This document shows positions 5,134 to 25,978 of a stretch of 64,000 nt of DNA, piece after piece. The stretch's first letter is position 1. Every line of letters starts with the position of its first letter. Origin of the DNA: Sporobolomyces roseus (taxonomy: Eukaryota; Basidiomycota; Microbotryomycetes; Sporidiobolales; Sporidiobolaceae); contig JADILM010000003.1 in the NCBI GenBank assembly GCA_016617785.1, forward strand, positions 1,488,001-1,552,000, in the 5' to 3' direction. The notes under the pieces were generated by a model that worked only from the letters and a program-made list of their open reading frames with translations, made no database searches and was not told where the DNA came from. The position numbers and the translations under genes were made by a program.

Positions 5134-7416
5134 ATGCCTGCTCGCAAAGCGCGACAGGATGGAGGAGGCGGAAAACGTGCAGCGACTGTCAAGAAAGCAA
5201 GAACGGGTTCGGGAAGGGGTCAAGGTCGTCAACAGAAGCGAGTCGAACTACCATACGATGTGTTGCTTCTCAGTATGTCCCTTTACTTCTGTCAGACAGT
5301 CACAGAAACTGACCTTTTGATCGAAACAGTCGCTGAGAAGCTCGATCCTCCTACTCTACTCTCTCTCACAAGAGTCAACAAATCGATGCGTTTCTTGTTG
5401 ACGTCGAAGAGTACCTCGAAATCGATCTGGAGGAAGGTTTTGAAGCCTTTGGGTTTACCTGAGCTCGAGACCGATGGCATGCTTGGTCCATCTTTGGTCG
5501 CGCTTCTCTACGAAAGAGTTTGCGAAGTGTGCGCGAAACATGGGGCACGCATGATGAGCTTCACTTTGCGATTCAGATGGCACAAGGTAAGTACTGATCC
5601 TCATCTTTCTTCTAATCTTCGCTCATTTCCTTTCTCAATTCAGGAATGCGAATCAAAGTATGTCTCGCTCTCTATGTAATAGCATGTGCCGGCTCACTCT
5701 ATGTCGCTTCACAGGATCATCATCAGAGAGAATCAGCTTCTCACCAAAATGCCAGCCGTTCGACAAGAAACCCTTCGCTGCTTGCCGCACGTCTACACTT
5801 GGGTGACGCGCGGCTATCCCGGTCAGCTTGTACATCCGCACACTTACGGAAACTTCATCGTCGATCAAATCAGGGTTGTCAATTTCGAGCTACTTGACTA
5901 TGTCGATGCATCGGAATTGAGCAAGAACGCAGCAATTCAAGCTTTCGTCGACTCGAAGAAGGATTCAATCGCTGCTCTGCATACGGTACGTAGCGCCTAC
6001 CTCGTATCTGGCTCTGAGTATCTGGCTCTGATACTGACGGCTCGTAGTCATCGATAGGATGCTGACAAGCTGGAGACTGCGTGGAGGAACGCGATTCAAG
6101 CTAGGAGAGATCGGTTCGTCCGCTTGCTCTTCTCGTAATCTCCTTCACTCGTTCTGAGGCTGTACAGTTCTTGTATCTTCATAGTCTTGATGTCACGCTA
6201 CGCGAGCAGCACATCGGAAAGGACTACTACAGGAAGTCGAAGGTGTAAGCCCGCTTCATTTCGATCACAGACCGTCTCACGACTGACCAGCTTCGCTTCA
6301 ACAGGGAGATCGACGACGTTCTCGATGCGAGTTGGCGATTCGTCGAGGTTCCGTGCTCGTTCACGTTCGAAGGTTCGCCGGGCCGAGCTCTTGCGAAGTC
6401 AGACTCTTCTCGACTGACCTCGTGTACCTCGCTCCAGAATGGAATCACGTCTATCGTCAGGTCGAATCCGTGTACATCCAACAGGTCGACAAGGTCTTCT
6501 CGAAGGCTCTCAGGAAACGTCAAGTCATTCGACGAGACGCACTTCGATCCGCTTACGACAAGCTGGACGATCCGCTCAAACACCCGATCTCGTTCCCAAT
6601 CTTCTTGGATCTTCCGATCGTTCGTCAATTCTGGGAAACGGACAACTCGCAGCACGATCTCGAAAACAGATGGACTTTGAACATTCGAAACGTTCAAAAC
6701 GGGTTCGCTTTCGCAAAACTATGGCTCCAATCCGTCTACGGTCGAACACTCTGCCAGGCTTTCTACCAGCTCGGCAAGCCACTCGTCTGCCATGATCGTC
6801 TCATCACTCCCCGTTCTCTCCTTCCTCCGCTTCGTTTCTCCGGAATTCAAGATCCCCTCAACGTTATTGGTCTGCACCTGGACACCCGTACAGCTTTGAC
6901 TTTGCAAGACAAGCTCGACATAAATTCGACCTTGGAGCGCTACTCGACTCAAGCTTGGTCTTTCGAAGGTCAGAAACCCATGCCTTACTCCGACGTCCGA
7001 TCCGAAATTCTCGCGGAGGTCAACGATCCAAACTACGAAGGACCTCTCTTCCCGACTTTCGATACGTACTGGCATCTCACTCTCCTCCAAATCCTTGAAA
7101 AGGCAGGAATCGACGACGATCTTTTCGAATCCACTTCGAAGCTTCTCGATCAGCTCGGTTCAAACTTCCTCTGCGGTATCTGCTCGTCAGTTGGAGGAGT
7201 CGACGATATCTACATGTCGCATCTTGACCTGGTACTTCCTCTCCCCCTCTCTTTGCTATCCTCTCGATGACCGACTAGCTTGTCGCGAGATAGCTCGACC
7301 ACCTCAAAGGTCACGATTTCCCTGCCGACGACACTCCTTCGTCGTCACTCATCATCTGCCGAAAGGCTACTCTCTCGAATGAAGACGGAAAGGACGCTGG
7401 AGTCGTCGCTGTCTGA
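5134..7416 (+). CDS. F-box domain protein, nine exons
   Basis: Exons 5134-5272, 5330-5586, 5644-5657, 5715-5985, 6058-6113, 6185-6244, 6305-6372, 6438-7231, 7294-7416; 593 residues, all phases agree. After a basic N-terminus comes a typical F-box (LPYDVLLLIAEKLDPPTLLS, then LTRVNKSMRFLL) and the block YERVCEVCAKHGARMMSF common in basidiomycete F-box proteins. F-box proteins bind Skp1 in SCF ubiquitin ligases and present substrates; the substrate here is unknown. The third exon is only 14 nt. The sixth intron (6245-6304) and seventh (6373-6437) were chosen because they alone join the helical region KVEIDDVLDASWRFVE to EWNHVYRQVESVY in frame. The C-terminus has cysteine pairs (CGICSS, ICRK) that may bind zinc. 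Confidence 0.7.
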
Positions 7417-8114
7417 TGAACTCTTTGCCAACCAAGTAATGTCAGTCCTTCGGTGGGTAAGTTTCCCTCTCGACTCGGCCAAAAGTGTAGCGCATACTAA
7501 GAGTACTTCTTCGCTGCAGTCGCTGTGCAGAGGTCTCAACGCTTGTCTTCTCAAACTGTTTGTCTTCTCGCTTGAATCCCCTCTCCCAAGCGTTTCTGCC
7601 TTCTTTCTCGCCTGTTTGTGTACGCTTACTGTGCAAAGTAGAGCCTTCTACGACCAAAATTGCAGACGACGTTCAAGGCAGGGCCAGTAGAGCTGTCAAC
7701 GAGGCAATCCAAGCTCCTCGCAAGGCGTCAAAGCTTCGCGTACACGCTTGAATGAGACAGTTCCCATTACATCGACAGCGGGAGCACACTTCCAGGAACT
7801 CATGGGCCGTACCTGAGCTGAAGATCGACGTTTAATGGGCGAGAATGAACCGTCGGGAGAGCCAAAAATGAACTTTGCGAAAAAAAGATGGCGTTTCCGT
7901 TTTTCGAAACGCTCCAACTCTCGACTTTGAAAGTAAGATTCTAAAGCTATGCGTTCAGCCATTACAAATTGACAGTTCCAATACGTGATTGCGGATACAG
8001 AACAACAACAAAACAGAACAACAAACCAGCCCAAAAGTTAAGAAAAGCGATCACATTTCTGTCTCTTCTCTCTTCTCTCTCTCACTTTCACTTCATCCAC
8101 CTTCACTCTCGACT
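7417..8114. other. intergenic; outer edge of inverted repeat and promoter of the zinc-finger gene
   Basis: The first 300 bases are the 3' flank of the F-box gene. From about 7725 the sequence matches the right arm. A block at 7870-7990, including the pair CGAAAAA (7878-7884) and TTTTTCG (7900-7906), and an AACAACAAAACAGAACAACAAA tract before the start codon, are almost unchanged in the right arm, which points to a retained promoter and leader. Confidence 0.6.
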
Positions 8115-9148
8115 ATGCACTTTACTTTCGACGTCGACGCTATCATGCCCTACTCGCCATCAACGACCTACGACTTCAGCTCGAGTGCTCGCGATTCGAA
8201 CAACTTGTTTGATCACATCGAACCTACGAAAGGTCGAGGCAGTATCGTCTTAGGTGGAGAAGTACACTGTCCTCCATCTCACCTCACAAAGGCCTTCGAT
8301 CGATACGAAGCACCTGGATCACCAACGAACGACTCTCTTCCGAAATCGACGAAATTGCAACGACAACTTTCGACGACGACGACGGACTCTTCTGGATCTT
8401 TGAGGACTCTGTGTAGTCAATGCGAGTCGGTCAGTCTCTATACTTGACACTCACTTGATTCGTTGCGCTGATTCGAGTGATCGCCTTCAACAGATCGCTC
8501 AATTAGAGGAACAACGCTTCTTCACTACTGTCAATTGGTCTCCTCCAATCCCGATGATGACGATGATCACGAAAAAGGTACAACAAGTCGATCCTACTCG
8601 TCGAATGAGTCAACAAGATCCTCCCCCTTGGTAAGCCTCTCTTCTCTCCTTTTGAGCTTTTCCTCGTGTGCGATCGCCTTTCGCTGACTGACCCTTTCTC
8701 TGCTTCTCTAGTAACACCTTTTACCTCAAAGACAAGTGTGCGACTGGAGCTCGGTGTCGATACGGTCACGACTATGAATTGAACTCTGCTCAACTCGAAG
8801 AGATTCGACGAGGTGCGAAATGGCATCCTTGTAGCGCTGTTCAACATGGACTACAATGTCCAGAGGGTGACTCTTGCATCTGTGAGTCTTCTACTACTAT
8901 CTTCGAAACTACTCGGGACTGATTCAAGCTCGTTTGTAGATGGTCACTCTTGTCCGAAAGGATTATATTGTCGAAAACCTGATTGTGCTTTCGGTGCCGA
9001 CGTCAACGCAGAGGTCGTCGATCTTCATGGACATCGACCTATCACTATTCGAAAAGTGATCTGGCAGCCTTCCACCGAGTACTATCGAATCTATCCTCAA
9101 CTCGTTTCTCCTATTCCTGTTTCTCCTTATTACGAAGCTTGTTGGTGA
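8115..9148 (+). CDS. CCCH-type zinc-finger protein (left copy)
   Basis: Exons 8115-8429, 8494-8630, 8712-8881, 8940-9148; 276 residues. The N-terminal 105 residues are disordered and Ser/Thr-rich. The rest holds two or more Cys3His-like fingers: CNTFYLKDKCATGARCRYGH, then CSAVQHGLQCPEGDSCIYGH overlapping CPKGLYCRKPDCAFGADV. Spacing of cysteines fits the fungal C-x8-C-x5-C-x3-H class, which binds RNA or, less often, DNA. The function is otherwise unknown. Its mirror copy is at 24381-25406. It is convergent with the DUF7918 gene. The start is the first ATG after the conserved leader, and MHFTFDVDA is identical in both copies. Confidence 0.8.
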
Positions 9149-9504
9149 TCGAGCATCCTTCGCTTCCTTCTCGTAACTTATCTAGGCATCCTATTTATTT
9201 GCAATACCATACCTATCTCTACCTTCCACCGAGATCTGAAGTGCGAGTAATCGAGAGAGTGAGCTTTTCGAGAGTGGGCGATTCTCGAATTACGCTCGGG
9301 ACAATGCAGAAAGGGAAAGGAACGACGTTACAGCTCGTAGAGAAAAGCGTTTTGGTAGGAAACAACACAGACGAAATTATTGCGAGAGAGAAGCCAAGCG
9401 AGGAGAACAGAAGCGAAAAAAGCCTGTCTCGTTCAACTCGTCAGTCAATCAGCGTGAATCAAAGACGAGAGAAGAGCGCAACTCACGACAAAAGTGAACA
9501 GCCT
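9149..9504. other. convergent 3' intergenic stretch within the repeat arm
   Basis: It lies between the stop codons of the zinc-finger and DUF7918 genes. It is clearly related to 24017-24380 of the other arm. I see no gene in it. Confidence 0.5.
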
Positions 9505-10944
9505 CTAGTCAAGCTCGATGACTACCTTTTCCTTCTTGACTTTAACCTTTGATGATCCTTTCTCTTTCTTGACTTTGACTTGTTCCCCTTTCAAAAGCTC
9601 CTTCTCATCTTCGAGTCGAGCTATTTTGACAGCCGTCGACTTTCCCTGATCATCAGAATCATCGGAGAGAACGAGAGCTCCGTCTTTGTCGATTGCGAAG
9701 TTTGATGCTTTGCGTTTCTTGCTCGACTTGACTTTCGAAGAAGAGGTTGAGGGAGGAGGACTGTGATCGATAAGCGGAAAGAGAGGTTTGACGATATCTT
9801 GTAGTTCGAGAAGATCTACAGAATTTGGAAAGTGAGTGGTGAAAATAGTCTCGATTCGAAAGGGGAACACAGCAAACTCCTCGAGAGATACTTGATCTCG
9901 AAAGTCGCGTAAGGTGCGAACTCAGAGTCAATCCAGCTCATGCCGACGCTTTCGCTCTGTGCAACCTGCTTCACGGCTCCGAATCTGTAGCAAGGTTTCA
10001 GCTGAGATCCTGTAATCTTTGGAAAGAGAGACAGTAGACTCACCCGACTTGATGAGATACGTTAGCTTTCTTCGAGCGTTCATCGACAGCCTAGGAGTCT
10101 CGAGGAGGTGTCAGCTTTGAGCGAGCGAGCGGTAAAGGAAGAAACTCACTCGATTATCAGAAACACTTTCGAACTGATTCGATTTGTAAACGGGACCAGC
10201 TTCAAATCCTCGGAGTGCTGTGACTGATATCGAACCGAGGTTCTTGATGAAATTTTCATCGTTTGAAGCGACGTCAGGATCGTCCGTGAGATTGATTTTC
10301 GAAAACATCAAAGGTCGCTTCTGAAACGCAGAGATGTAAGGTCCATCGACGACTGCGTTATCTTCGGGACGACGAGCAAGCGTTCCTCCAACTCTGCTAC
10401 ACTCGAACGTCAATCTGAACCCGACAGAACGAGAGGCAAAGGAGAGGAAGGTAGTTTACTTTGTACCGTCTACTGATCCAAAGAATCCGACACCGTTAGG
10501 GAAGAACGTTTGCAACATCTTGTTCTGTATCTTGAACTCTTTTCCTTCGATCGATTCGATGTAGCAAGTCGCTTTGTTGTCTTTGATTTGAGCTTTGTAC
10601 ATTTTGACTGGTTTGTCGTCGATCAAGATTGAAACCGACAAGTTGTTGCAGACGCTATCGATCGAGAAAGAGTCAGTACTCGTTGTATCGATCGACTATG
10701 AATGGGACGTACAGGCTCGTAGGAATCTCGGCGGAAGAAGAAGAAGTTGATTGAAGCCTGCGAAAGAAGAGAGAGGAACCGTCAAATTCAGTTTTCCCTT
10801 GATTGAACCACTGGAAGATACGGCTCCTATCTCCTAAGACCCTATCTAGTCCATCCCTGACCTGTACATAGCTTCCATTTGCCGTTGAATGGGCAATCGA
10901 CCTTGATCTCATTTGGAGGAGAGAGAAAGAACAAGAACTCACAT
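9505..10944 (-). CDS. DUF7918 family protein (left copy), start codon split by an intron
   Basis: Minus-strand exons: AT of the start codon at 10944-10943, then 10757-10713, 10654-10460, 10414-10150, 10090-10044, 9984-9878 and 9815-9505; 323 residues. The core reads NNLSVSILIDDKPVKMYKAQ, a glycine-rich turn GVGFFGSVDG, RPLMFSKINLTDD, ENLG-like NFIKNLGSI and FEIKYLSRNLLELQDIV. This is the pattern of the basidiomycete DUF7918 domain, of unknown function. The C-terminus is a lysine-rich tail with a basic SSKKRKAS motif (likely nuclear) and a short coiled segment. The last intron uses a GTTTGC donor, the only choice that keeps the conserved frame. It is head-to-head with the F-box gene. Confidence 0.75.
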
Positions 10945-11251
10945 CGTGGCTTGACACACTCTAGTCTATTCTTGAGAGTTATCAATAGTCAGTCGTTGTA
11001 GTCCAGAGCAGTTCAGAGCGTTTAGTAGTGAAAGGGAGGAAGTGAAGAAGAAAGTTCATCAAACTTTGGCTCTTCTTCTCCTCCCAAACACTTCAAGGAC
11101 TACAAAGATATCTCTATTCGAGTCACAGAGCACTCAAACAGCCGACAAACCTAACAGTCAAGCCTGAACGCGACCTCTTCCCAAATCACTCAATCCTCTT
11201 CGACTTCATTTCGCAACTTCTCGTAGCCTCGGACAAGGTTGATAAGACGCG
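10945..11251. promoter_or_regulatory. divergent promoter of DUF7918 and F-box genes (left arm)
   Basis: About 300 bases between the two start codons. The sequence is conserved, with small changes, in 22261-22568 of the other arm, including a CAAACTTTGGCTC/CTTC tract. I see no clear TATA box. Confidence 0.5.
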
Positions 11252-12836
11252 ATGGATGACTCGTGAGTACATTAATACAGCCTCTATGACTCTCGCTGAT
11301 TCCCATTCTCACGTAGAACTTCGAATCCCTCTCCTTCCCTCGCTCCTCCTCCTCGAACTCGCTCTCTCCTCGACCTCCCTACCGAACTCCTCAGCGTCAT
11401 CGTCAAGATGTGTGCAGATCAAGATGAAGCGTTCCGACATCGAGTGAAGTTGATCGAGCTGCATTACGAGGAAGTCGACTACTCTCGCAACATTCTGGAG
11501 GACCAGACAGCAAGCGGATTCGGATCTAGTCTCGATACGATCTCGAGGTCATGTCACAGGATCAGGACCCTCGCAGCACGCTATATCTTCAAGGTGCGTT
11601 TACTTTAAGAATCGTCAAAATCGGTTGAGCTGACGGGACCCCCGGAGGCAGACCCTCAAAGCATCCCGCACGAACTTGGCGTATCGTTGCTACATCGCAC
11701 CTCTGTACCAATGCCATTTTCAGCACGCCTACCTAGACACGCTGGAGCAGGAACTAGCAAACAATCTGGCCACCTCCCTCGCTTCCTTACCCAACCTTCA
11801 CGCGCTCACTCTCGACGCCGAGGCCACAAACGCTGTCTACGGGAACGAAATCACTTTCGATAGGCCACTCGCCGATAGACCGCTATTCAATATGCTCCTC
11901 AGGAAGGGACGAGATATACGAACCCTTCATCTTCGCAATTTCAACTTCTCAGTCTATCGTCCACTACACTACATCGCAAAGTTCCCTAATCTCCGGAGTC
12001 TCTCCCTTGTTGGCTCGCTCCCGACAACCTCGCCGATAGCAGTGGGTCTCGCCCAGTCAATCTCTCGTCTGGAGGACCTCAAGCTCGACCTCGGCGACAC
12101 CTATCGTATCCCTGAAGTATTCCTCCTGAGCAACTGCAAGTGGCCAAAGTTGAAGAAACTCAGCATCATCAGCGGGAACCTCGAGATCGCTACTCTCGAC
12201 TTCATCCGTATCTTCGAATCTTCACTTCAACAACTCTCGATAACGACACCCGGTGACGATACCGTTGAAGTCGGAAGTGCTGGCCTTGCTGGCAACTCGT
12301 CCTTCCCTCTCCTAGACACCATCGCAATAATCGGTTCTTCACAAGTCGCATGGCAAATTTTTGGCGATTCGAACAAGTCAACCTTTCCTTCGCTCATCAA
12401 ACTTCGTCTTTCGTACAATGAAGGTGCACTCAATGGCTTCGGGACCTCGGACGACGTACTGCATAAGGTCTTCGATACCTCAACGATTCGCTTCCTCCAA
12501 TACGATCCTCCCGATCAAGATATTCCTATCGAGCACAAAGATTACCTCAGAGGCAAGGCCGAGGAATTAGGCTTCCGAGTCAAGCTCCACGATTGTCCGG
12601 AGGAAACATTCCCAACTTCTCAAGTTCTCCTCGAACAAGCCGTATGCGTTCAAAACGCTCAAGTCGGGCGCGTGGCTTGCAACCGCGAACCTTTACAGGA
12701 ACAAGTCGAACGTGTTCGGAGCTATTTGGATGACTCGATCAAGGTTGCGGAACTCACCGGAAATCTCGTCGAGTATCAACGTATCCTCAATCTCGCTCGA
12801 CCGCTCGAGTACGATCGTCTCGCGAAGATGGACTAG
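11252..12836 (+). CDS. F-box protein with leucine-rich-like repeats (left copy)
   Basis: Exons 11252-11262 (11 nt), 11317-11593, 11652-12836; 490 residues. The F-box is LLDLPTELLSVIVKMCADQ after a proline-rich leader. The middle has repeated LxxLxL patterns (LHALTLDAE, IRTLHLRNF, LRSLSLVGS, LEDLKLDLG, LKKLSIISG) like degenerate leucine-rich repeats, the usual substrate-binding part. The C-terminus QVERVRSYLDDSIKVAELTG and RPLEYDRLAKMD is almost identical in the mirror copy at 20649-22260, while the middle has diverged strongly. The substrate is unknown. It would act with Skp1, Cullin-1 and Rbx1, whose gene lies only 2 kb away. Confidence 0.75.
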
Positions 12837-13919
12837 CTCTCGTCCATCGATTCATCGTGAGTCTCCAGTCTCTGCTTGTCTGAATCTCTCGCGATCCATA
12901 CTAACCAGACTCCCTTTACTTCAGACAACAGCCCTTCGCATTCAGCACCCTGCACTCGCGCCTTATCTCGTCTCAGCACATCACACTCTCGCATGTCTTT
13001 CTCTTCTCGTGCCCCTCGTATCGCTCGAGTGATCCTCCTTCGCCCCTCGCCCGATTCTGTCCTCTGCGAGCGCATTCTCGTCCCTCTTCGAACACCCTTC
13101 CCATCTCGTCCTCATCTCCAACACCCCTTATCTGACTTGCCCGCTTCCTCTTCACATCGTACTCTCTCCCCTCTCCTGCTCGTTCATCATTCATGTCCCG
13201 TCGTATTCACCGATATCTACCCCGTTCATCCGATTCTTCTCGCCCTTCCCCCTCACGCCTCGCTCAACACCAGCCCATTACCCTCGTCCAACTTCCTCAC
13301 CTTCATCCCTCTCTCTCGTCGTGCTCGTCCTCCCGCATTCACTCCCATCTGTTTCGATCCTTGTTCAACTCGCCTCGACATTCTCGTCTCTCCGATTCTT
13401 TCGCCTCCCTTCTCATTTCCTCCCCAACACTCGCTACAAGATCGATGGTGCTTAGAGAGTAGGGTCAAGGTCAAAGCTGTCTAGTTGATGGAAGGGTAAT
13501 GGGAGTTATCGAATTCGAGGAGGAAATGGGGGAATTTCAGCGAGAACGGACGGCTGTGATTCTGGGCAAGGAAGGGAGGCCGAGCGACCAAACGACTTGT
13601 GGTAGATCCAATAGTAAGCGAATCGTGGCTCTGATCTTGTGAAACTTGCGAAAACTGTTCGGTGATAGAAATGAAATGTCGAGAGGCGCCTTTCTCGTTC
13701 TCCACGATGTGCAGGGCTCATGACACCCAATCATTGGTCGTATGCGTTCTGAAACTGTCCAAGGCAACTCGGATCATTTTGAGCTAGAGCACGAGCGAGA
13801 ATGACGAGGAAAAGGAGGATGCGGAAATCAAAGAATCGTTCCAAGAATGCTCTTCGATGATAAAATACGAGTGCTACAACACGACATGCCCTCTATACAC
13901 GATCCTCCCTCAAATCAAA
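12837..13919. other. intergenic, 1.1 kb, no convincing gene
   Basis: The first 650 bases are C/T-rich with long chance reading frames of low-complexity Ser/Pro/Leu; they lack splice structure and known motifs. The rest is ordinary sequence. It begins where homology between the repeat arms stops, and holds the 3' flanks of the F-box gene and IMP2. Confidence 0.5.
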
Positions 13920-14775
13920 CTAAGCAAAGAAATTCTCTTTCGCTTTCACTGGAGGTTGATAAACTCTCTTCTCCCACCCAGGTTTCCCTTTCACCGGTCC
14001 AAACCGTCTAATTCCACTCCTCCCTTCATCAGCTCGATCCTCGCAAGTTCAAGTAAGTAAAGAGAGAAACATACGATAGAGGCCATAATATCCAATCCAC
14101 TCGACTCTCGACGCATCCGAGAGGGACTGGACCAAAAGTGTTTGAATCCCTCGAATGAAACTGTTCGTCCCCTTCAATCCAGCAATGACCTTGAGGAACC
14201 CTCAACGTTCGCTCTGGGTAGGGTGGGAGTGTCGTCACTAGTGAATTGGGCAGTGCGACTAGACGCTTGATGAGGAGTGTCGAGGGATTGATGGGTGATC
14301 TAGAGAGGAATGAGGCAGTATGGGGAGGTAGGAGGAGAAAGGGGAGAGAAGACGGACTTGACGGCGATCACGTCACCTGGCTGATAACCTGATTTGTCAC
14401 CGTGTGAGGCAGCTAATGCGACGTAACGATTCAGGAGTACGATATCTTTGATCATATGCGACGAATCTGGATTCAAAGTGGGCTGTGGAGGCACTGCTGA
14501 GCGTTACCATCTGCTACAGGTGAAGAGTGAAGAGTAGAGTGAGACTCACTTGCATGGATCTGAGTGAAATGAGCAAAAGAAACGAAATGAGCAAAATTCC
14601 ACTGAAGAGTCGAATGGACAACGGAAGCTCACCTGCCTGAAACTGTCGCTATTGAGTAAACATGTTGTTCGAAGAATAGAGCAACTGCTGCCCAACCCAG
14701 CACGTTGAGCGTCCGTCGAACAGGGAAAGAAGTTGAAGGAGCCAGGATTGCGAGCGATATTGACCGGATTTGGAA
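13920..14775 (-). CDS. IMP2: mitochondrial inner membrane protease subunit 2 (signal peptidase I family), 5' end unresolved
   Basis: Minus-strand exons: 14775(or higher)-14633, 14559-14550 (10 nt), 14482-14358, 14299-14075, 14019-13920. The join reads FFEQHVYSIATVSGRSMQPT, NPDSSHMIKDIVLLNRY, GDVIAVKSP, LLIKRLVALP and VPQGHCWIEGDEQFHSRDSN followed by FGPVPLG. These are the S26 family boxes: nucleophile Ser in SMQPT, general base Lys in IKR, and the SRDSNxFGP box of Imp2. Imp2 removes sorting signals from proteins such as cytochrome c1 in the intermembrane space. The tiny second exon encodes the catalytic Ser-Met-Gln. No in-frame ATG is visible after the stop at 14778-14776, so the true start is unknown. 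The 3' exon was chosen because GTATGT to GGAG restores IRRFGPVKGKPGWEKRVY. Confidence 0.8.
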
Positions 14776-14921
14776 TCAGCGGGTCGGGACTGAGAAGATT
14801 GAGAGTACGTTTAATTCGATGAGGAGTATGAGTTTTAGCGAGTCGAGTAGGAGAGAGGAAAGCGAGTTGGTTTCTCTCTGTCTCTTTCTCATCATTTCGA
14901 TTCCTCTCAACTCTCTTCAAA

Positions 14922-15820
<899 letters not shown>

Positions 15821-16222
15821 ATGGACCCCTCACGATCTCCCACCAACTCCAGCTGGACAGGGAAAAAGAGACGAGACGACCTCTTACGATACTGTCAATT
15901 TCGAACCCGAAAAACGTTGCTATACCCCCTTCTTCTGCTCCTCCTTCCTTCCCTCATCCCTCCTCTCTCTTCGTCGTTCCTCTGTCTCGCTCTCTTTCTA
16001 CACTCGCAGCTTTACTTTCCCTCTCCTCTGACTTTTCCGATTTTTTTGTCGCAATTTTCGTTTCTTTTGTAACATGTTCCTTTCCCGGCTACTTTTACGC
16101 TCTAGTCATCAGAGAGCAGCAAAATGCGTACAGAGATGCAGCTGAAGGAAGGTTCAGACTCGCTCCCGAAAATCGCTTTCATCGCCTCTTTCACTCTCAT
16201 CACCACCTTCCAACTTCCCATC
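15821..16222. other. intergenic: RBX1 3' flank and FIS1 leader
   Basis: The stretch is strongly C/T-rich (15930-16060) and then runs into the FIS1 start. It fits a 3' untranslated region followed by a pyrimidine-rich fungal promoter. I see no further gene. Confidence 0.5.
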
Positions 16223-16970
16223 ATGCCTTCGGACGTTTTACCAGGTACTCTCTCTCTCCTCTACTGTCTCAGACTCCCTGCTGACCCCTCTCCCACCCAG
16301 GCGCGATTGATGCCGCCTCTCCTCTAGAACCTTCCGAACTCGCAGTCCTCCGCGAACAATACTATTCAGAAACCTCTAAAGGGTGGTGTAGTACTCAAAC
16401 CAAATTCAATTTCGCATGGGGTAGTGTCAAGAGTGAGAACAAAGTTCAAGTGGGCGAAGGAGTTGGGTTATTAATGGGTTAGTTGTTCTCCTCCTCTTCC
16501 TCTCGCTCTGTGGTAAGCTGATATGATTTGAGAGGAGTATTGTTAGAGATCTATAGGAGTGAACCGGAGAGGAGAAGGGAATGTTTGTATTTCCTTGCTG
16601 TCGGACATTACAAGTTGGGTAATTATCAAGAAGCTAAACGATATAACGGTACGCTCCACTCTTTCTCGACGACGAGAAGAGAAGACCTGACAGGGATTGG
16701 GAGAGAAGGGTTATTGTTGGAGAAGGAACCGAATAATTTTCAATCAAAGAGTTTGAACGCTTTGATCGAGAAAGCAGTTGCGAAAGGTGAGTTTCAAGAA
16801 TCTCTCTCTCTGACGACATCGACCGTCTCAAAGATACTCTCGAGCTGATGTGGTAAGGAGGAATCTTGTTTACAGAGGGTTACGTGGGAATGGCGATTGC
16901 TGGAGGAGCTGCCGCTGCCGCTGGAATCTTATTCACTGCTTTATTGTCGAGTAGAGGAGGGAGGAGATGA
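16223..16970 (+). CDS. FIS1: mitochondrial fission protein Fis1
   Basis: Exons 16223-16244, 16301-16477, 16535-16648, 16709-16786, 16876-16970; 161 residues. The tetratricopeptide-like body shows [40 protein letters not shown] and [20 protein letters not shown], and it ends with [19 protein letters not shown] plus a basic RGGRR tail. This is the Fis1 plan: a cytosolic helical bundle and a C-terminal anchor in the mitochondrial and peroxisomal outer membrane that recruits the fission dynamin through adaptors. The acceptor of intron 3 could be 16693 or 16708; both keep frame, differing by five residues. I prefer the second because it leaves the normal LLLEKEP spacing and a proper branch point. 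Confidence 0.92.
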
Positions 16971-17274
16971 GTCATATCCGGTAGAGGAGTGAGGAAAGGT
17001 CGAGTGTAGCTAGTGCTTGTATCAACAAGGGTCTTTTGTTTTTCTCTGATAGTTGTGATTCTGCTAATAATTCCTCGTTATTTCTGTTCTATCTCTCTCG
17101 GTTTACGCTCGTGAGATTTGCGAGAGCGTGAGTAAGAGAGTGTTGACAAGGTATAGTGCAATTTCTCAAGATCTAAAAAGCGAGAGAACGGAAGGGGGAA
17201 CAGTCTGATGATACAACCGAAGAGAAGGATGCGAGGCGGGAGGGAGTAGTAGCGATGGGAGAAGAGAGAGAGGT
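16971..17274. other. convergent 3' intergenic stretch
   Basis: Between the FIS1 stop and the stop of the small zinc-finger gene. No gene or structured element seen. Confidence 0.5.
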
Positions 17275-17811
17275 CTAGGCGGCGATAGTAGCACCGGGGA
17301 AGCATTCGGCGGGAGTTTTGAGTTTCTCATGTTTCGCAGCTGTGCATCGCGAACATTTTGAGTATTTCCGCACGTCATTTCAAGAGGGACAGAAGGTAGA
17401 GCTCACCGTGATCTCTGAGGATTACAGGCATTGATTCGATGAACATGGACTTGCAAACGGTGCATTGGATTTGAGTTTTAGGGGCTTTCTTGACGACCTG
17501 TACGTTCGAAGCGATTCGCAGGTCAGCTTCGAATCCTGCCTGAGAGAAACAGACTGTTACGTACACCTCCTTTCGTTGTCTCAATCTGGAAGCGAGGAGA
17601 TGGAATTAGCGAATAAAGTCGAGCGAGAAGAGGAAGAAGAGAAAAGAATGAATCACCTTGATACCTTGTTCCTCCTTCTTCTTTTGTTCCCTTGATCGAG
17701 CGTCCTTCTTTGATAATCCCACTGCAGGAGAGGGGAGTAGATTGGGTTAGTTGAGAGATGAGATTAAAGGAAGCTACTTCAACAGAGGAAAACAAGGGCA
17801 AAGGACTAACT
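17275..17811 (-). CDS. small zinc-binding protein, ZNF706/At2g23090-like, start codon split by an intron
   Basis: Minus-strand exons: A of the start codon at 17811, then 17721-17657, 17585-17565 (21 nt), 17497-17407 and 17339-17275; 80 residues. It reads MGLSKKDARSREQKKKEEQG, a linker, then KAPKTQIQCTVCKSMF and RDHAAKHEKLKTPAECF. The N-terminus resembles the 4F5/SERF basic segment and the C2H2 pair (CxxC ... HxxxH) with the KxP ending matches the ZNF706/At2g23090 family. Its cellular role is not settled. The A|TG split is inferred: no other ATG fits upstream, and GTTAGT/CTGCAG join ACAA to TGGG. It is head-to-head with MAK11 (164 bases apart), and both are compatible with growth-related expression. 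Confidence 0.75.
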
Positions 17812-17975
17812 TGTAGCGTTTACTTGAAGTGTGTGTGAATTACTTAGAGTCTAGGAGTAGTAATCAGAAGCAGTTCAGAGTACTTGTGTGAAGTGGGAGA
17901 AGCGAGGAGAAACTTTTCAAAAAAGTTTCCCTTTACTCTCTCCCACCTCACTCCAACTACCAGTACTCGATTAGA

Positions 17976-19712
17976 ATGGCCAAGAGAAAGGCTACACAAC
18001 CTCCTAAAGCTTCGACAAGTCAAGCAAAGCCCCTTCCCAAGGCTAAGAAAGCTCGCTTCTCTAATCTAACTCCCTCCCTTCCCACTCCCAAATCACAACC
18101 AAAGAAAGCAGCACCTATCCCAAAGACCAAGATTGCACAAATAGCGGGACCCCCTAAGAAGTTTGTCATTTCAGCTGGAAGTTATGAACGATTACTGTAT
18201 GGATTAGAATGTCAATTCACTCAACCCGATAACAACTCTACCTCGACTCCTAAACTACAAGTAAACCCAATATTCTCCTTCCCCGCTCATTTATCATCAT
18301 TGAGAACTGTCGCCGCGAGTTCGAATCCGATTACTGAAGAGAGTGGATTAGGGACGGAAAGAAAGTTGGGAGGAAAGTATTTGGTTAGTGGTGGACAGGA
18401 CGAAGTCATCAAAGTTTGGGATCTACAGAGGAGGAAAGAAGTGGGTTCACTAGAAGGTGATACAACAGGTGAGTCTCAAAACTCTATTCTCAATAGATCA
18501 CTTCCGCTCACTATTCTTCTCATTAGGCACGATCACCTGTCTTCGATTCTGCCCTCATCGAAACATGCTCCTATCCGCTTCCTCAGACTCTACCATCTCT
18601 CTCTACCGAGTCCGAGATTGGGTTCTCCTCCGTTCCTTGAAAGGTCACAAAGGTCGAGTAAACTGTATCGACCCTCACCCTCAAGGTCGAGTTTGTTTGA
18701 GTGTAGGAAAGGACAAGAATCTGAGGATGTGGGATTTGGTAGCTGGAAAGTCAGTGGCTACGTTGAAATTGGGAACCGAGGGTGATGTAGTCAGGTGGAA
18801 TACGAAGGGAACCAAGTTTGGCGTGATCACGGGTTCAACTTTAATCGTTTATGGCATCGTACGTTCCCCTTTCACTGTCTTTGACGCTGGTAGCGAGCGC
18901 TGACGAAGAGATGAGAGTAATAGGACATGTCGATTCATCACACCCTCTCAGCACCCTCTCGATTCCATGACCTCCAATTCTGTATCGTCTCGGGCAAAGA
19001 GTACTTATTCGTAGGATGCGAAGATGGAAAGACTCGTGTATTCGATGTCTCGAACCCGAACCCGATCAAGCCTGGAGAAGAAGAAGACGAGGAGGAATTC
19101 GAAGGGAGAGAGAAATTGTCTGTTTGTGCTGAATTGACCGGTCATACGAATAGGTGTGTGGTTCTAGCTCTCACTCAGCATAAAGGAGACTGCTGAGCTG
19201 TTGTACCGAGTGACAGGGTGAAGATGATGGATCTCCTCGAAGTAGCGCTTCCAACTTCTACTGTCGATTCCCCTAAATCGACTATTATCCTCACAACAGC
19301 TTCATCAGACGGTCGAATCAATCTCTACGACCTCTCGCAACTCTCAACTCTCTCCTCAACATCAAAAGAGATCGAACCCTCAGCAACATTCGACACGGAT
19401 AAGAGTCGATTAACCAGTATTTGCGCAATTGGATTACTTGAGAAACGGGTCAAGGGAGCTGCTCAAGGAACAGAGGAAGAGGAGAGTGATTCAGAAGATG
19501 AGGAGGAAGATGAGGAGGACGATGATGAGTTGGTGGATGGGAAATTTGCGGGCGAAGTTGGTGGAGAAGAGGAAGAAGAGTTTGAAGGGATCATGATTAA
19601 TTTGAGTGATAACGAGATCGAAGAGGATTCGCAGGACGATGGTCAACCGGGAGAGGAGGATGAGGATGAGCTGAATTTGGAGGATCTTTTAGATGATGAG
19701 GTAGAGGAGTAA
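17976..19712 (+). CDS. MAK11: WD40 ribosome-biogenesis factor Mak11 (PAK1IP1 homologue)
   Basis: Exons 17976-18468, 18527-18858, 18924-19153, 19217-19712; 516 residues. A lysine-rich nuclear N-terminus is followed by WD repeats: LVSGGQDEVIKVWDLQRRKE, LLSASSDSTISLYRVRDW, LKGHKGRVNCIDPHPQGRVC with LSVGKDKNLRMWDLVAGKSV, an EYLFVGCEDGKTRVFDV blade and LTTASSDGRINLYDL. The C-terminus is very acidic. Mak11/PAK1IP1 acts in assembly of the 60S subunit in the nucleolus, near Rlp24 and the 5S RNP. The match rests on the motif order, the GHTNRVKMMD spacing and the acidic tail. It is longer than yeast Mak11 (468) because of the tail and N-terminus. Confidence 0.85.
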
Positions 19713-20648
19713 TTTGAGATCAAGTTCATCGGAAGCTTTCGTTCTCAACGGGGTAGGCGGCGAGAGGAGAGGGTAGTGAGATTGCTGTGCGTTGGCGCAC
19801 TGTCAGGCTCACAAGAAGCATCTCACGAACTTAACAGCGGATCGCTTTCGACTCGAACGGGCCAGCGCAGACTCACTCAGGAGAACACTCATAGCTAATC
19901 TGACATTGACAAGAGCAACAGCAGAACAATCGGCTCTGAATCGGATTGAAAGTTCCCTCCGATCGATTTCTCGTACAACTTCTCTTCCTTGACTTCGCGC
20001 CTTCTGACTCTGTCGCTTCGGAGCCTCCTCCAGTCGGAGTGCTGTGTCGACAATCGAGGGGTCGAAATGAGCGAAGAGCGGGCTGAGTGAGAGAGTAAAG
20101 GTGAGAACGGACGAAAAATGTAGGGACGAGACGAAAGAGGCGAGGAGACGCGGATTGGAAGGTGATCGGAGTTTGAAAAGGATATAAAGGAGTAGGGTAT
20201 CGAGTCTGCGTGTTATCGGAAGGAGGAGGGGGAAGCGAGCAGAACCGGAGGAAGGGGAAACGAGGATTTCTCTAAGTGAACTGGGACGATAGTGGTTGAA
20301 GCGGCGGAGAGAGGCGATCCGAAGTGATGGAGAATTATTGGCTGGCGGGACGAGAGAGGGGAGGAGAGGCGGGGGCGGGGGCGGGCTTCGATTGACAGGG
20401 TATGGGGAGTTGGAAGAAAGGGAGTTTGGGAGAAGAGAATCGGGAGCCATGCCGAAACAACGGAAACTGAGGAAGGCGGGAACGAAGAAGTGGCAGGACG
20501 TTGTAGGGACGAGAGAGGGGCATGGAGAAAGGGACAAGACGGTCGTGGATGAAGCTGCTAGTCGAGAGAGGAAAAGCGAGGTTCGTCAGTTCAGTTGGAT
20601 AGATGTTTGGAAAGAGAGAGAGAGAAACGAGGCTTACAATATTGACGA
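19713..20648. other. intergenic, 0.9 kb, no convincing gene
   Basis: It holds the 3' flank of MAK11 and of the right-arm F-box gene. It is purine-rich on the plus strand, with a G-rich patch at 20360-20385. There is an open stretch at 19800-19990 of mixed composition that might be an exon, but no start, partner exon or motif supports it. Confidence 0.4.
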
Positions 20649-22260
20649 CTAGTCCATCTTGGCGAGACGATCGTACTCGAGGGGTCGAGTCAAGTTGAGG
20701 ATCCGTTGATAATCGACGAGGTTCCCGGTTACTGCCGCAACCTTGATTGAGTCGTCTAAATGGCTCCGAACCCGCTCAACCTGTTGTGGAAGAGGCCCTC
20801 CAGGTGCTGCTCGATATCCGCTTGAATGTCGATCAACATACTCGATTTTGGCGGAGTAGATGCAGTCGTCTGGTTGATCGAGAGCTTGCAACGTAGGAGC
20901 CGCTCGTTCAGGGTAATCGTAGACTTGTAATCGGAAGCCGGAGGTGACTGACTCGGTCTCTAGGTATTCCTTGTGTTCGAGACGAATATCTTGATCAGGG
21001 GGGTCATATCGGAGAAAGTGAATTCGTGAATTGTCGAGTATCTTGCGTAGGACTTCGTCACTTTCTCCGAAACCGTGGCGAGCTTCATCTGTATACGAGA
21101 GGCGAACTCTGTCGAGCGAGGGATACGTCGACTTGGTCGAGTCGCCGACTACACTCCAGGCGATTTTGGAAGACCCGATGATGTCAATGGTGTGTAACTG
21201 CGGGAACCTGGCGCCAGGCGACATACGGGCAGGCTCTCCCCGCAAGGCGCGGTCGTCCGGTGTCGTGATCGAAAGTTCACGGAGGCAGGACTCGAATTTG
21301 CGAATGAAGTCGAAAGTCTCGGTCTGTACGTTGTGTGTGATGAGGATGAGCTTTCGCAGACTTGGCCACGAGGGATGGGAGATTTGCGTGGGGAAGTCCG
21401 TCTCTGCCTCCATGCGATTATCGAGTGTGAGCGTTTCGAGGCGAGGGATTGATCCGATCAATTTCGTGGCATTGGCGGTGGTGACATGAAGGGGACCGAC
21501 AAGTGAGAGGCTTGTAATGTTCGGGAACTTCTTGAGATAACTAGTCTGGATGGTCTGGCGGAAATCGAAATCGTGGAGGTGGAGCGTTCGTATGGCCTTG
21601 CCCTTCTGAGCGAGCATAGCAATGACTGGGTTCGAAGCGCTTGAAGGCGTGTAGTAGATATCATGACCAAAGATCGACTGGGCTACAGTTGCGTGAAGAG
21701 TGAGTTCGTGTAGACTGATGAAGGAACCGAAGGACGCGATAAGGTTGATTGCCGCCTCTTTTTCAACTTCATTGATGATCACGTGTTGATAGTGACGGAG
21801 GTACTGAGGGAAGATGAAGAAGCGGTAGGCCAAATCGACAATCCGCGAGGCTGTGAGGGTCTGCTTTCGATCGTTTCGTCAGCAGCTTGATCTCGACGCA
21901 AAACAGATCAACTAACTCTGAAGATGTACGGCGCTGCTAGCTCTTTGGTACGACGGCACAACTGGAACATCGCGTTCGAACTGTAACCGTATCCGCTGGC
22001 GACCTGATCGTCCAAGATTTTGTCGGTGTGAGGAGTCTCGAGATAATGCGACTTGATCGATTTCACTCGATGACGGAATGCTTCATCTTGATCTGCGCAC
22101 ATCTTGACGATGACGCTGAGGATTTCGGTAGGGAGGTCGAGGAGAGAGCGAGGTCGATGAGGAGGACGGAGGGAAGGAGAGGGATTCAAAGTTCTACGGA
22201 GGAATGAGAATCAGTCAAGAGCTCATAGAGGCTGCAGTAATGTACTCACGAGTCATCCAT
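20649..22260 (-). CDS. F-box protein with leucine-rich-like repeats (right copy)
   Basis: Minus-strand exons 22260-22250 (11 nt), 22193-21917 and 21860-20649; 499 residues. The F-box exon (LLDLPTEILSVIVKMCADQ, then DEAFRHRVKSI) and the C-terminal 60 residues are nearly the same as in the left copy. The middle differs at most positions while keeping the leucine pattern (LHELTLHAT, IRTLHLHDF, ITSLSLVGP, LETLTLDNR, LRKLILITH). The second intron uses a GTTAGT donor. A likely SCF substrate receptor whose target is unknown. The reading frame is intact, so the copy is not an obvious pseudogene. Confidence 0.75.
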
Positions 22261-22568
22261 AGCGTCTCGTGATCTTTCTGCGAAGTTGCGAGAGGTTGAA
22301 AGGTGAAGTCGAGGAGGATTGAGCGAGATGAGAAGAGGGCGTGTTGAGGCTTGACTAATAGGTTTGTCGGCTGGTTCAGTGCTCTATGAGTCGAATAGAG
22401 ATATTTTGGAAGTCCTTGAAGTGATTGGGAGGAGAAGATGAGCCAAAGTTTGATGAACTTTCCTTTTCGCTTCCTCCCTTTCACTACTACAAAGCTGTGA
22501 ACTGCTTTGGACTACCACGACCAACTACTGATTACTCCCAAGAATAGATTAGAGCATCTCAAACCGCG
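22261..22568. promoter_or_regulatory. divergent promoter of F-box and DUF7918 genes (right arm)
   Basis: This is the counterpart of 10945-11251. Both keep the same spacing and many short identical blocks, so both copies are probably controlled alike. Confidence 0.5.
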
Positions 22569-24016
22569 ATGTGAGTACTCGTTCTTTCTCTCTCCTCCAA
22601 ATGAGATCAAGGTCAACTAGAGCTTTCACGGCAGATGGAAGCTACTTGAAGGTCAGGGTAGGATTAGATGGGCTTACTGAAGTAATAAGATCGAGCTCAG
22701 CTCACAGAACGAGGTAGAATAGCTGACTTTACTGCTTCGTCTCCTTTCTCCTTTCGCAGGCTTCAACCAACTTCTTCTTCTTCCGCCGAGATTCCTACGA
22801 GCCTGTGAGTACACTTATAAGACGCGAAGTATGATCTGTACTGACTCTCCCTCTGTCGATAGCGTCTGCAACAACTTGTCGGTTTCAATCTTGATCGACG
22901 AGAAACCTGTCGAAATGTACAAAGTTCAAATCAAAGACAACAAAGCGACTTGCTACATCGAAGCGATCGAAGGGAAAGAGTTCAAGATACAGAACAAGAT
23001 CTTGCAATCGTTCTTGCCTTACGGTGTCGGATTCTTTGGATCAGTGGACGGTACAAAGTAAACTTCCTTCCTCTCCTTTGTCTCTCGTTCTGTCGGGTTC
23101 AGATTGACGTTCGAGTGTAGCAGAGTTGGAGGAACGCTTGCTCGTCGTCCCGAAGATAATGCAGTCATCGATGGACCTTATATTTCTGCGTTCCAAAAAC
23201 GACCTTTGATGTTTTCGAAAATCAATCTCACGGACGATACTGATCTCGCTTCGAACGATGAAAAGTTCATCAAGAATCTCGGTTCGATATCAGTCACAGC
23301 ACTCCGAGGATTTGAAGCTGGTCCCGTTTACAAATCCAATCAGTTCGAAAGTGTTTCTGATAATCGAGTGAGTTTCTTCCTTTACCGCTCGCTCGCTCAA
23401 AGCTGACACCTCCTCGAGATTCCTAGGCTGTCGATGAACGCTCGAAGAAAGCTAACGTATCTCATCAAGTCGGGTGAGTCTACTTGTCTCTCTTTCCAAA
23501 GATTACACGGTCTCAGCTGAAACCTTGCTGCAGATTCGGAGCCGTGAAGCAGGTTGCACAGAGCGAAAGCGTCGGTATGAGTTGGATGGACTCTGAGTTC
23601 GCACCTTACCCGACTTTCGAGATCAAGTATCTTTCGAGGAGTTTGCTGTGTTCTCCTTTCGAATCGAGACTATCTTCACTACTCACTTTTCAAATTCTGT
23701 AGATCTTCTCGAATTACAAGACATCGTCGAACCTCTCGTTCCGCTTGTCAATCACAGTCCTTCTCTCTCAACCTCTTCTTCGAAGGTCAAGTCGAGCAAG
23801 AAACGCAAAGCATCGAACTTCGCAATCGACAAAGACGGAGCTCTCGTTCTCTCCGATGATTCTGACGATGAGGGACAGTCTATGGCTGTCAAGATAGCTC
23901 GACTCGAAGATGAGAACAAGCGCTTGAAAGGAGGAGAAGGAGTCAAAGTCAAGAAAGAGAAAGGATCTTCGAACATCAAAGTCAAGAAGGAAAAGGTAGT
24001 CATCGAGCTTGACTAG
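22569..24016 (+). CDS. DUF7918 family protein (right copy), start codon split by an intron
   Basis: Exons 22569-22570 (AT), 22760-22804, 22863-23057, 23103-23367, 23427-23473, 23534-23640, 23703-24016; 324 residues. It is nearly identical to the left copy through the whole DUF7918 core (SVSILIDEKPVEMYKVQIKD, LMFSKINLTDDTDLASNDE, FEIKYLSRNLLELQDIV). It shares the KKRKAS basic motif and lysine-rich tail. Every exon has the same length as in the left copy except the last, which is one codon longer. The first intron, which splits the start codon, is kept in position although its sequence differs. The function is unknown; a nuclear location is inferred from the tail. Confidence 0.75.
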
Positions 24017-24380
24017 AGACTTTTCACTGTTGTCGTGAGCTGCCCTGTTCTCTCGTCTTCGATTCACGCTGATTGACTGACGAGTTGAACGAGACAGGCT
24101 TTCTTTCGTTTTCTGCTCATCTCGCTTGGCTTCTCTCTCGCATCTGTCATTTGTGTTGTCTCCCACCAATACGCTTTTCTCTACAAGCTGCAACGTCGTT
24201 CTCTTCTTCTTCCCCTCGTCTTGAACGTACCTCGGAATTCGCTATCTCCAGTCTCGAAAAGCTCACTCTCTCGATTACTCGCACTTCAGATGTCGGCGGA
24301 AGGTACGGGTAGGTATGGTATTGCAAATAAATAGGATGCCTAGATAAGTTACGAGAAGGAAGGAAGGGAAGGACGCTCGA
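24017..24380. other. convergent 3' intergenic stretch within the right arm
   Basis: Counterpart of 9149-9504. No gene seen. Confidence 0.5.
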
Positions 24381-25406
24381 TCACCAACAAGCTTCGTAAT
24401 GAGGCGAAACAGGAATAGGAGAAACGAGTTGAGGATAGATTCGATAGTACTCGGTGGAAGGCTGCCAGATCACTTTTCGAATAGTGATAGGTCGATGTCC
24501 ATGAAGATCGACGACCTCTGCGTTGACGTCGGCACCGAAAGCACAATCAGGTTTTCGACAGGAAAATCCTTTCGGACAAGAGTGACCATCTGCAAACGAG
24601 CTTTAATCAGTCTTAAGTAGTTTCGAGGAGAGTAGTAGAGGACTCACAGATGCAAGAGTCACCCTCTGGACATTGTAATCCATGTTGAGCAGCACTACAA
24701 GGATGCCATTTCGCACCTCGTCGAATCTCTTCGAGTTGAGCAGAGTTCAATTCGTAGTCGTGACCGTATCGACACCGAGCACCAGTAGCACACTTGTCTT
24801 TGAGGTAGAAGGTGTTACTAGAGAAGGAGAGGAGAGTCAGCGAAAGGCGATCGCAAACGAGGAAAAAGCTCAAAACGAGAGAAGAGAGCTTACCAAGGAG
24901 GAGGATCTTGTTGACTCATTCTACGTGTAGGATCAACTTGTTGTACCTTCTTCATCATCATCATCGGAAGTGGAGGAGACCAATTGACACTCGTGAAGAA
25001 GCGTTGTTTCTCGAGTTGAGCGATCTGTTGAAGGCGATCACTCCAGTCAGCGCAACGAATCAAGCGAGAGTTAATCGTAGAGACGCACCGATTCGCATTG
25101 ACTACATAGAGTCCTCAAAGATCCAGAAGAATCCGTCGTCGTCATTGAAAGTTGTCGTTGCAGTTTCGTCGTTTTCGAAAGAGAGTCGTTCGTTGGTGAC
25201 CCAGGTGCTTCGTATCGATCGAAAGCTTTTGTGAGGTGAAATTGAGGACAGTGTACTTCTCCACCTAGAACGATACTGCCTTGACCTTTCGCAGGTTCAA
25301 TGTGATCAAACAAGTTGTTCGAATCGCGAGCACTCGAGTTCAAGTAGTTGGTCGTTGTTGATGGGGAGTAGGGCATGACAGCGTCGACGTCGAAGGTAAA
25401 GTGCAT
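24381..25406 (-). CDS. CCCH-type zinc-finger protein (right copy)
   Basis: Minus-strand exons 25406-25089, 25024-24894, 24817-24648, 24589-24381; 275 residues. It carries the same finger array as the left copy (NTFYLKDKCATGARCRYGHD, QCPEGDSCIYGH, CRKPDCAFGADVNAEVVD), with a few substitutions and small whole-codon length changes in exons 1 and 2. The preservation of frame through these indels suggests selection on the protein. Confidence 0.8.
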
Positions 25407-25978
25407 CGTCGAGAGTGAAGGAGGATGAAGTCAAAGTGAGAGAGAGAAGAGAGAGAAAACGAGAAATGTGATTGCTTTTCTTAACTTTTGGGCTGGTTTG
25501 TTGTTCTGTTTTGTTGTTGTTCTGTATCCGCAATCGCGTATTCGAATTGTTAGTTTGTAATGGCTGAACACATAACCTGAATCTTACTTTGAAAGTCGAG
25601 AGTTAGAGCGTTTCGAAAAACGGGAACGCCATCTTTTTTTCGCAAAGTTCATTATAGCTCTCCCGACGGTTCAGTCTCGCCCTCTCGCGTCAATCTTCAG
25701 CTCTCGTGGTCTTTCCATGCGTGGTCCCGCTGTCGATCTGAAATGTCCTGACATTTCGGGCTTGTATGCGAAGCTTTGACGGTTCGACTCAAGCCAGTAC
25801 TTCGCCCTCTACAGAACCGATAGTACCTGAAACTCACGAGCTAATCTTTGGTATGTCTACAGCTTTCGTGACTGCGATCGTCAAAAGTCCGAGACTCTCC
25901 TCGGATAAAGCTTTGACCTTTCTTTTCTAATCTCGCTTGAAGCTCTCTCTCCCCTCCTCCCTCTCCAGAACATCGAGC
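25407..25978. other. intergenic; zinc-finger promoter, repeat boundary and upstream region of a membrane protein
   Basis: The conserved leader and the CGAAAAA...TTTTTCG pair (about 25617-25645, opposite strand) lie here. Repeat homology ends near 25782. The remaining 200 bases belong to the next gene's promoter. Confidence 0.5.

Follow-up and report, generated by a model that had tools for sequence, protein, structure and literature searches.

How can two copies of the same gene module be closely alike over most of their length and anciently different over the rest? The question is raised by a locus of Sporobolomyces roseus strain CGMCC 2.4355 (genome of 22,396,975 bases in 15 contigs), located in the 64,000-nucleotide stretch of DNA analysed here, which we call the window (C3:1488001-1552000). 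Two inverted arms face each other across a 7.8-kb core, and each arm carries the genes of a CCCH protein (gene A), a DUF7918 protein (gene B) and an F-box/leucine-rich repeat (LRR) protein (gene C). We consider it probable that an old inverted duplication of A, B and C around the single core was followed by non-allelic gene conversion, which homogenised the outer 3.65 kb of the arms patchily and at different times.

Extent of the inverted repeat and its mosaic of divergence

Self-BLAST of the window gave one dominant inverted match, 7815-11466 (+) against 22044-25703 (-), with 89.3% identity over 3695 columns (E 0.0). This falls short of near-identity within the strain, and it exceeds the 80% identity that an earlier reading made from the letters alone (the sequence-only reading) had named as the least to be expected of the arms. 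Two further short inverted matches were found at 12700-12836/20649-20785 (85.5%) and 12483-12552/20958-21027 (80.3%). From the outside inward, both arms carry A, then B on the opposite strand, then C, in mirrored order. Gene A has four exons and gene C three, six exons were found for gene B, and the intron positions are equal between the arms. All six spliced frames (A, B and C in two arms) stay open up to one terminal stop. Self-BLAST and the spliced frames therefore bore out the inverted three-gene module, with matching orientation and intron positions, that the sequence-only reading had described. Its claim of like arms of about 5.1 kb stood in part: in the identity profile a fainter similarity (~60%) beyond the BLAST limits reaches its outer ends at ~7725 and ~25782, but high identity (89%) is confined to 3.65 kb of each ~5.1-kb arm, and the two C proteins share 45.6% identity over residues 51-440. 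The features of the arms are as follows.

7815-11466, forward strand: left high-identity arm (self-BLAST, identity profile), fainter similarity out to ~7725
22044-25703, reverse strand: right high-identity arm (self-BLAST, identity profile), fainter similarity out to ~25782
8115-9148, forward strand: left gene A, 276 residues, exons 8115-8429, 8494-8630, 8712-8881 and 8940-9148
24381-25406, reverse strand: right gene A, 275 residues, four matching exons, 92.7% amino acid identity to the left copy
9505-10757, reverse strand: left gene B, exons 9505-9815, 9878-9984, 10044-10090, 10150-10393, 10460-10654 and 10713-10757, putative 5' end
22760-24016, forward strand: right gene B, matching exons, 90.7% amino acid identity to the left copy, putative 5' end
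11252-12836, forward strand: left gene C, 490 residues, exons 11252-11262, 11317-11593 and 11652-12836
20649-22260, reverse strand: right gene C, 499 residues, 53.7% amino acid identity to the left copy overall and 88% in the first 50 residues
11467-12699, forward strand: LRR body of left C, outside the presumed homogenisation, 56.7% nucleotide identity in coding bases
20786-22043, reverse strand: LRR body of right C, the other body type
12700-12836, forward strand: C-terminal tail of C, 85% alike, counterpart 20649-20785, intermediate silent divergence
10655-10872, no strand: low-identity stretch, comprising B intron 1 (10655-10712, 60%) and the B 5' end (10758-10872, 62%), with exon 10713-10757 (98%) between them

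The 3.65-kb arms aligned with MAFFT over 3632 columns with 372 differences and 48 gap columns, and the longest stretch without any difference is 155 bases. In a genome-wide DNA search the 3.65-kb arm was present as two full copies, with one additional 101-base match to another F-box gene. The outer flanks and the C bodies differ between the left and right sides in the identity profile.

Identity between the arms varied strongly from part to part. For gene A it was 91.2% upstream, 93.9% in the exons and 88.3% in the introns; it was 86.4% in the A-B gap, 93.8% in the B exons, 89.1% in the B introns and 78.1% in the promoter shared by B and C. Overall, the introns are 88-89% alike, compared with 94% for the exons. 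Within gene C, the F-box exon part is 91.3% identical, the body 56.7% and the tail 84.7%, and C intron 2 is 57% identical. The edge is sharp and lies at 11466/22044, just past the F-box: bases 11367-11466 are 91% identical, whereas bases 11467-11566 are 50% identical. Since the similarity ends inside gene C, the locus holds two F-box proteins with a nearly common head and two old, different LRR bodies.

Silent sites followed the same edge. Four-fold degenerate sites differed between the arms at 16/119 in A, 12/134 in B and 2/25 in residues 1-53 of C, at 57/94 in the C body (residues 54-444) and at 7/19 in the C tail (residues 445-490). When pooled, the difference between A, B and the F-box part (30/278) and the C body (57/94) was highly significant (Fisher 9e-21). 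Synonymous divergence (dS) by the Nei-Gojobori method (NG86) was 0.19 for A, 0.14 for B and 0.12 for the F-box part of C, while the proportion of synonymous differences (pS) in the C body was 0.75, and the LRR bodies are thus near saturation at silent sites. The four-fold counts, dS and cross-genome identities of B were obtained with exon 3 taken 21 bases too long; the shortened version was used for the feature identities, the clumping, the trees and the topology test. The differences between the arms were also clumped, with an index of dispersion of 3.6 at all sites and 4.1 at noncoding sites, and 0 of 2000 shuffles reached either value. Of the B introns, numbers 2-5 reach 93-98% identity (intron 2, 97%), in contrast to 60% for intron 1 (Fisher 1e-11). 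Mutation resembling repeat-induced point mutation was considered as well and rejected: transitions between the arms showed no excess in the TCG context (28 seen, 31.6 expected).

Age of the arms and how they became alike

In a tree of the C bodies, the right copy grouped with P0018 (supports 100/99) and the left copy with P0015, P0017 and JCM5353_005647 of strain JCM 5353 (84/97), which places the origin of the C pair before the split from JCM 5353. The tree contained four of the five C homologs and the two in-genome copies, with P0019, which equals the second in-genome copy at 416/417 residues, omitted. The C homologs were taken from the best 7997 candidates by shared words, a selection that a right-type copy of JCM 5353 could escape. 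Two outgroup copies were flagged as long branches by the tree program; support for the left and right groups extends beyond the outgroups, because the identities (71% against 52-54%) agree. The left body is 97% identical to P0015, 85% to P0017 and 71% to its JCM 5353 counterpart, but only 54% to the right body, and the right body is 84% identical to the environmental relative P0018. Near-saturation of the LRR bodies at silent sites and a C pair that was already present when JCM 5353 split off make it unlikely that the entire module was duplicated recently, as the sequence-only reading had suggested.

Gene B gave a different picture. The two B copies are 91% identical to each other, and each is 70-76% identical to the two copies of JCM 5353 (left copy to 005646, 71%), which are alike at only 69%. 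The B copies grouped within the genome in trees that contained 12 and 6 of the 29 B homologs besides the two window copies. In the approximately unbiased (AU) test, joining the left copy with JCM5353_005646 cost 18.7 log units (p 0.008) and joining the right copy with 002975 cost 18.2 (p 0.011), and positional orthology was rejected, with gene position in JCM 5353 taken from the locus tags of one arm. Among the B columns with full data, 12 split by genome and 1 along the positional pairing, and the opposite cross pairing had 0. At sites that distinguish the two JCM 5353 copies, both window copies agree with 002975 in 35 cases and with 005646 in 19. For gene B only, therefore, the arm copies were closer to each other than to their positional orthologs, with moderate supports. 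A protein search showed that JCM 5353 and S. salmoneus both have two copies of B, and each C-body type occurs in some relative. In JCM 5353, a single contig of 12,477 bases carries A, B and a left-type C under tags 005645-005647.

We infer that the arms owe their likeness to conversion and not to a fresh duplication; the silent sites, the mosaic, and the B trees with the AU test all argue for conversion, the other cause that the sequence-only reading had offered. The CCCH/DUF7918/F-box-LRR module would first have been duplicated in inverted orientation around the core. Non-allelic conversion between the inverted arms would then have homogenised the outer 3.65 kb in patches, which would explain why old and young stretches lie side by side. 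Two causes could make conversion halt where the F-box meets the LRR body: the bodies, at ~55% identity, may be too dissimilar for pairing, or selection may remove mixed bodies. Pairing failure of the unlike bodies would alone be enough to explain the edge, and the data do not separate it from selection. The abrupt edge makes this gene a testable case of whether selection or mismatch sets the point where homogenisation stops.

Several observations weigh against this explanation. Exon 10713-10757 is 98% alike and flanked by stretches of ~60%, so that constraint instead of a tract edge may be at work there. The C tail differs from the body only weakly at four-fold sites (p 0.08). Both C-body types were not seen together in any single relative among the best 7997 candidates. 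The within-genome B pairings have only moderate support (85/84 and 81/87; 94/93 for the window pair in the larger set) and would also arise from separate duplications, and the 69% identity of the JCM 5353 B copies indicates that homogenisation there is weak or absent. Gene order in JCM 5353 was read from locus tags, which place one arm, and gene A forms one cluster (2 member sequences) in that strain. DUF7918 genes are often duplicated, and they are multiplied in several red yeasts: S. johnsonii JCM 1840 has at least four, and adjacent tags are seen both in Rhodotorula toruloides (000407/000408, 0204/0205) and in R. mucilaginosa (005416/005417). Such frequent duplication makes the two B copies of JCM 5353 and S. 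salmoneus a weaker support for one old duplication. The tags of S. salmoneus (7061 B, 7062 A, 7073 B) do not match the layout here, and those of S. carnicolor (2274 B, 2280 A) show no plain fit to it.

The most serious rival is a recent partial duplication, in which an older, diverged inverted C pair came first and the 3.65 kb of A, B and 5' C was then copied once across by way of the homology in gene C. It would account for a similarity edge within gene C, for the single level of silent divergence in A, B and the F-box part (8-13% of four-fold sites) and for the grouping of the two B copies, and the frequent duplication of DUF7918 in relatives suits it. However, one copying event does not readily give arms as unevenly diverged as B intron 2 (97%) and intron 1 (60%) or the clumping that no shuffle reached, and the two B copies in both JCM 5353 and S. 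salmoneus would require extra separate duplications. We therefore regard it as unlikely.

A single duplication of the whole module, after which only the LRR bodies diverged rapidly by adaptation and no conversion took place, is very improbable. Rapid evolution is common in the LRR regions of F-box proteins, and protein divergence in C is mainly confined to the LRR body, but the excess at silent sites (57/94 against 30/278) is hard to obtain from protein selection, and C intron 2 is also just 57% identical. Still less credible is strong DNA constraint keeping the arms alike without conversion. The rate of nonsynonymous change (dN) is well under dS in A (0.035/0.189) and B (0.042/0.143), and the short 98% exon amid ~60% stretches would fit; on the other hand, the introns come close to the exons in identity, and 24-37% of the residues of B and of A exon 1 are different in JCM 5353 (the A exon 1 comparison included 7 of 14 A homologs). 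An assembly artefact or mis-joined haplotypes are similarly improbable, because, although inverted repeats are known to break or merge assemblies (in the accessible text of PMC9731477), the arms differ by 10% over 3632 columns, the flanks and C bodies are unlike on the two sides, and the published assembly was built, according to the accessible part of its report, from Nanopore (~200x) and Illumina reads (PMC8643702). That part gives 21.4 Mb in the abstract and 22,396,975 bp in a table as the assembly size, the latter being the genome size used here.

JCM 5353 is also labelled S. roseus, in PMC12584667 as well, and its A, B and left-type C proteins share only ~60-76% identity with those of CGMCC 2.4355. 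This points either to very fast evolution of the three genes or to two different species under one name.

The core and comparable invertible loci

A whole-genome search with the core (12840-20640) as DNA found a single match, the core itself. One exon of the WD40 gene, the only core exon compared as protein, matched itself at 100%, with the next matches at <=40% over short stretches. The locus thus consists of gene-bearing inverted repeats around a core that is single as DNA, and the core genes expected by the sequence-only reading were recovered, in addition to a small gene absent from its list.

12837-20648, no strand: core, 7.8 kb, with an S26 peptidase, RBX1, FIS1, a small gene and a WD40 gene
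~14.0-14.5 kb, reverse strand: S26 peptidase domain, which we take to be IMP2-like from its sequence features
~14.97-15.7 kb, forward strand: RBX1, zf-rbx1 (5e-25), exons joined by eye
~16.3-16.85 kb, forward strand: FIS1, with Fis1_TPR_N and Fis1_TPR_C
~17.1-17.6 kb (17100-17600), reverse strand: small core gene, its motif presumably resembling small SERF/At2g23090-like zinc-binding proteins
17976-19709, forward strand: WD40 gene, which we take to be MAK11

Pfam gave no match on the single reading frame of the small gene that was scanned. The core genes are presumably essential. A crossover between the arms, instead of conversion, would invert the core and could give the two orientations that the sequence-only reading envisaged. 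More tentatively, conversion might keep the F-box head, A and B common, the two old bodies that read substrates might persist through selection against conversions crossing into them, and exchange by crossover from arm to arm might flip the core within the species.

The closest comparison is the flip/flop region of Saccharomyces chromosome XIV. In the accessible text of Salzberg et al. 2022 (PMC9731477), gene-bearing inverted repeats of ~4 kb flank single-copy genes there, as in S. roseus, the copies within a genome are closer than positional orthologs between species, and gene conversion was invoked. That region has a 24-kb core with 15 genes, almost identical repeats and both orientations across strains; in contrast, the locus of S. 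roseus has a 7.8-kb core, 89% arms and other genes, belongs to a basidiomycete, and part of one arm gene escapes homogenisation. A mammalian X-linked inversion (Caceres et al., as cited in the accessible text of PMC9731477) likewise has homogenised inverted repeats for which conversion with occasional crossover was proposed, as we propose here. It differs in kingdom, size and genes, and recurrent inversion was reported there, whereas inversion of the core here is what the arms would permit. In Ogataea polymorpha, a 19-kb chromosome stretch inverts in the mating-type switch (accessible text of PMC5720833). No mating-type gene was recognised in S. roseus among the arm genes or the core reading frames given to Pfam, some reading frames being outside that scan. 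The Ogataea stretch is reportedly bounded by inverted repeats. The S. roseus locus was unreported in the open-licence literature searched, as judged from titles and the starts of abstracts. If the core flips, the locus would parallel the Saccharomyces region in a basidiomycete, which would suggest that inverted gene pairs maintained by conversion have independent origins and are able to cause recurrent inversions around housekeeping genes.

Products of the arm genes

Gene A probably encodes an RNA- or DNA-binding CCCH protein, as suggested by the Pfam matches zf-CCCH_12 and zf-CCCH_tandem, both slightly below cut-off. In environmental reading frames, A exon 1 appeared as a mosaic (P0012 shares one part with the right A and another with P0011), a pattern to which we give no weight as proof.

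Gene B belongs to the DUF7918 family (PF25534, E 2.9e-27, 96.6 bits against a gathering score of 27). The model of the JCM 5353 copy P0020 has a confident beta-rich fold over the first ~200 residues, which matched nothing in the PDB at E 0.001 and is possibly an undescribed fold. DUF7918 is not named in the open-licence literature searched, and NCBIfam matched 0 of the 3 proteins. At the start of B (10757-11000 / 22600-22760), candidate start codons are present in the left copy, whereas stops interrupt the corresponding frame of the right copy, which may therefore begin at another site or carry 5' damage. The named protein matches came from Sporobolomyces and other yeasts, whose genera we take to belong to the Microbotryomycetes.

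Gene C is most likely, on the basis of its domains and model, a receptor of an SCF (Skp1-Cullin-F-box) ubiquitin ligase. F-box-like_2 scored 22.0 bits (cut-off 21.6) and Pfam LRR_4 25.3, just below 27. The model was LRR-type, with a mean predicted local distance difference test score (pLDDT) of 73.6, and gene C thereby combines the F-box and LRR solenoid expected of an FBXL receptor. Its PDB matches included D3, TIR1, COI1 and FBXL2 complexes, and also Toll-like receptors, NLRP proteins and ribonuclease inhibitor, with query-normalised TM-scores of 0.19-0.47 among the best 50 matches listed. The F-box and LRR-type model are common to FBXL substrate receptors of SCF ligases, from which gene C differs by lineage-restricted matches and low TM-scores.

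Acquisition of a C body from other F-box genes was also considered. The nearest copies, at C3:1662k and 1671k, are only ~31-34% identical to either body, so neither is the donor. They form a second opposite-strand F-box/LRR pair (L044-L045, C3:1662285-1663831 and 1671413-1672995), ~7.6 kb apart and with 31-34% protein identity to C. Comparison of C3:1650-1690k with the window, as DNA and in six frames, gave only F-box genes and weak short matches and revealed no counterpart of A, B or the core, and the genome-wide A and B searches list no match there; this region is merely a divergent F-box pair and not a second inverted module. Weaker F-box/LRR relatives of gene C lie on C9.

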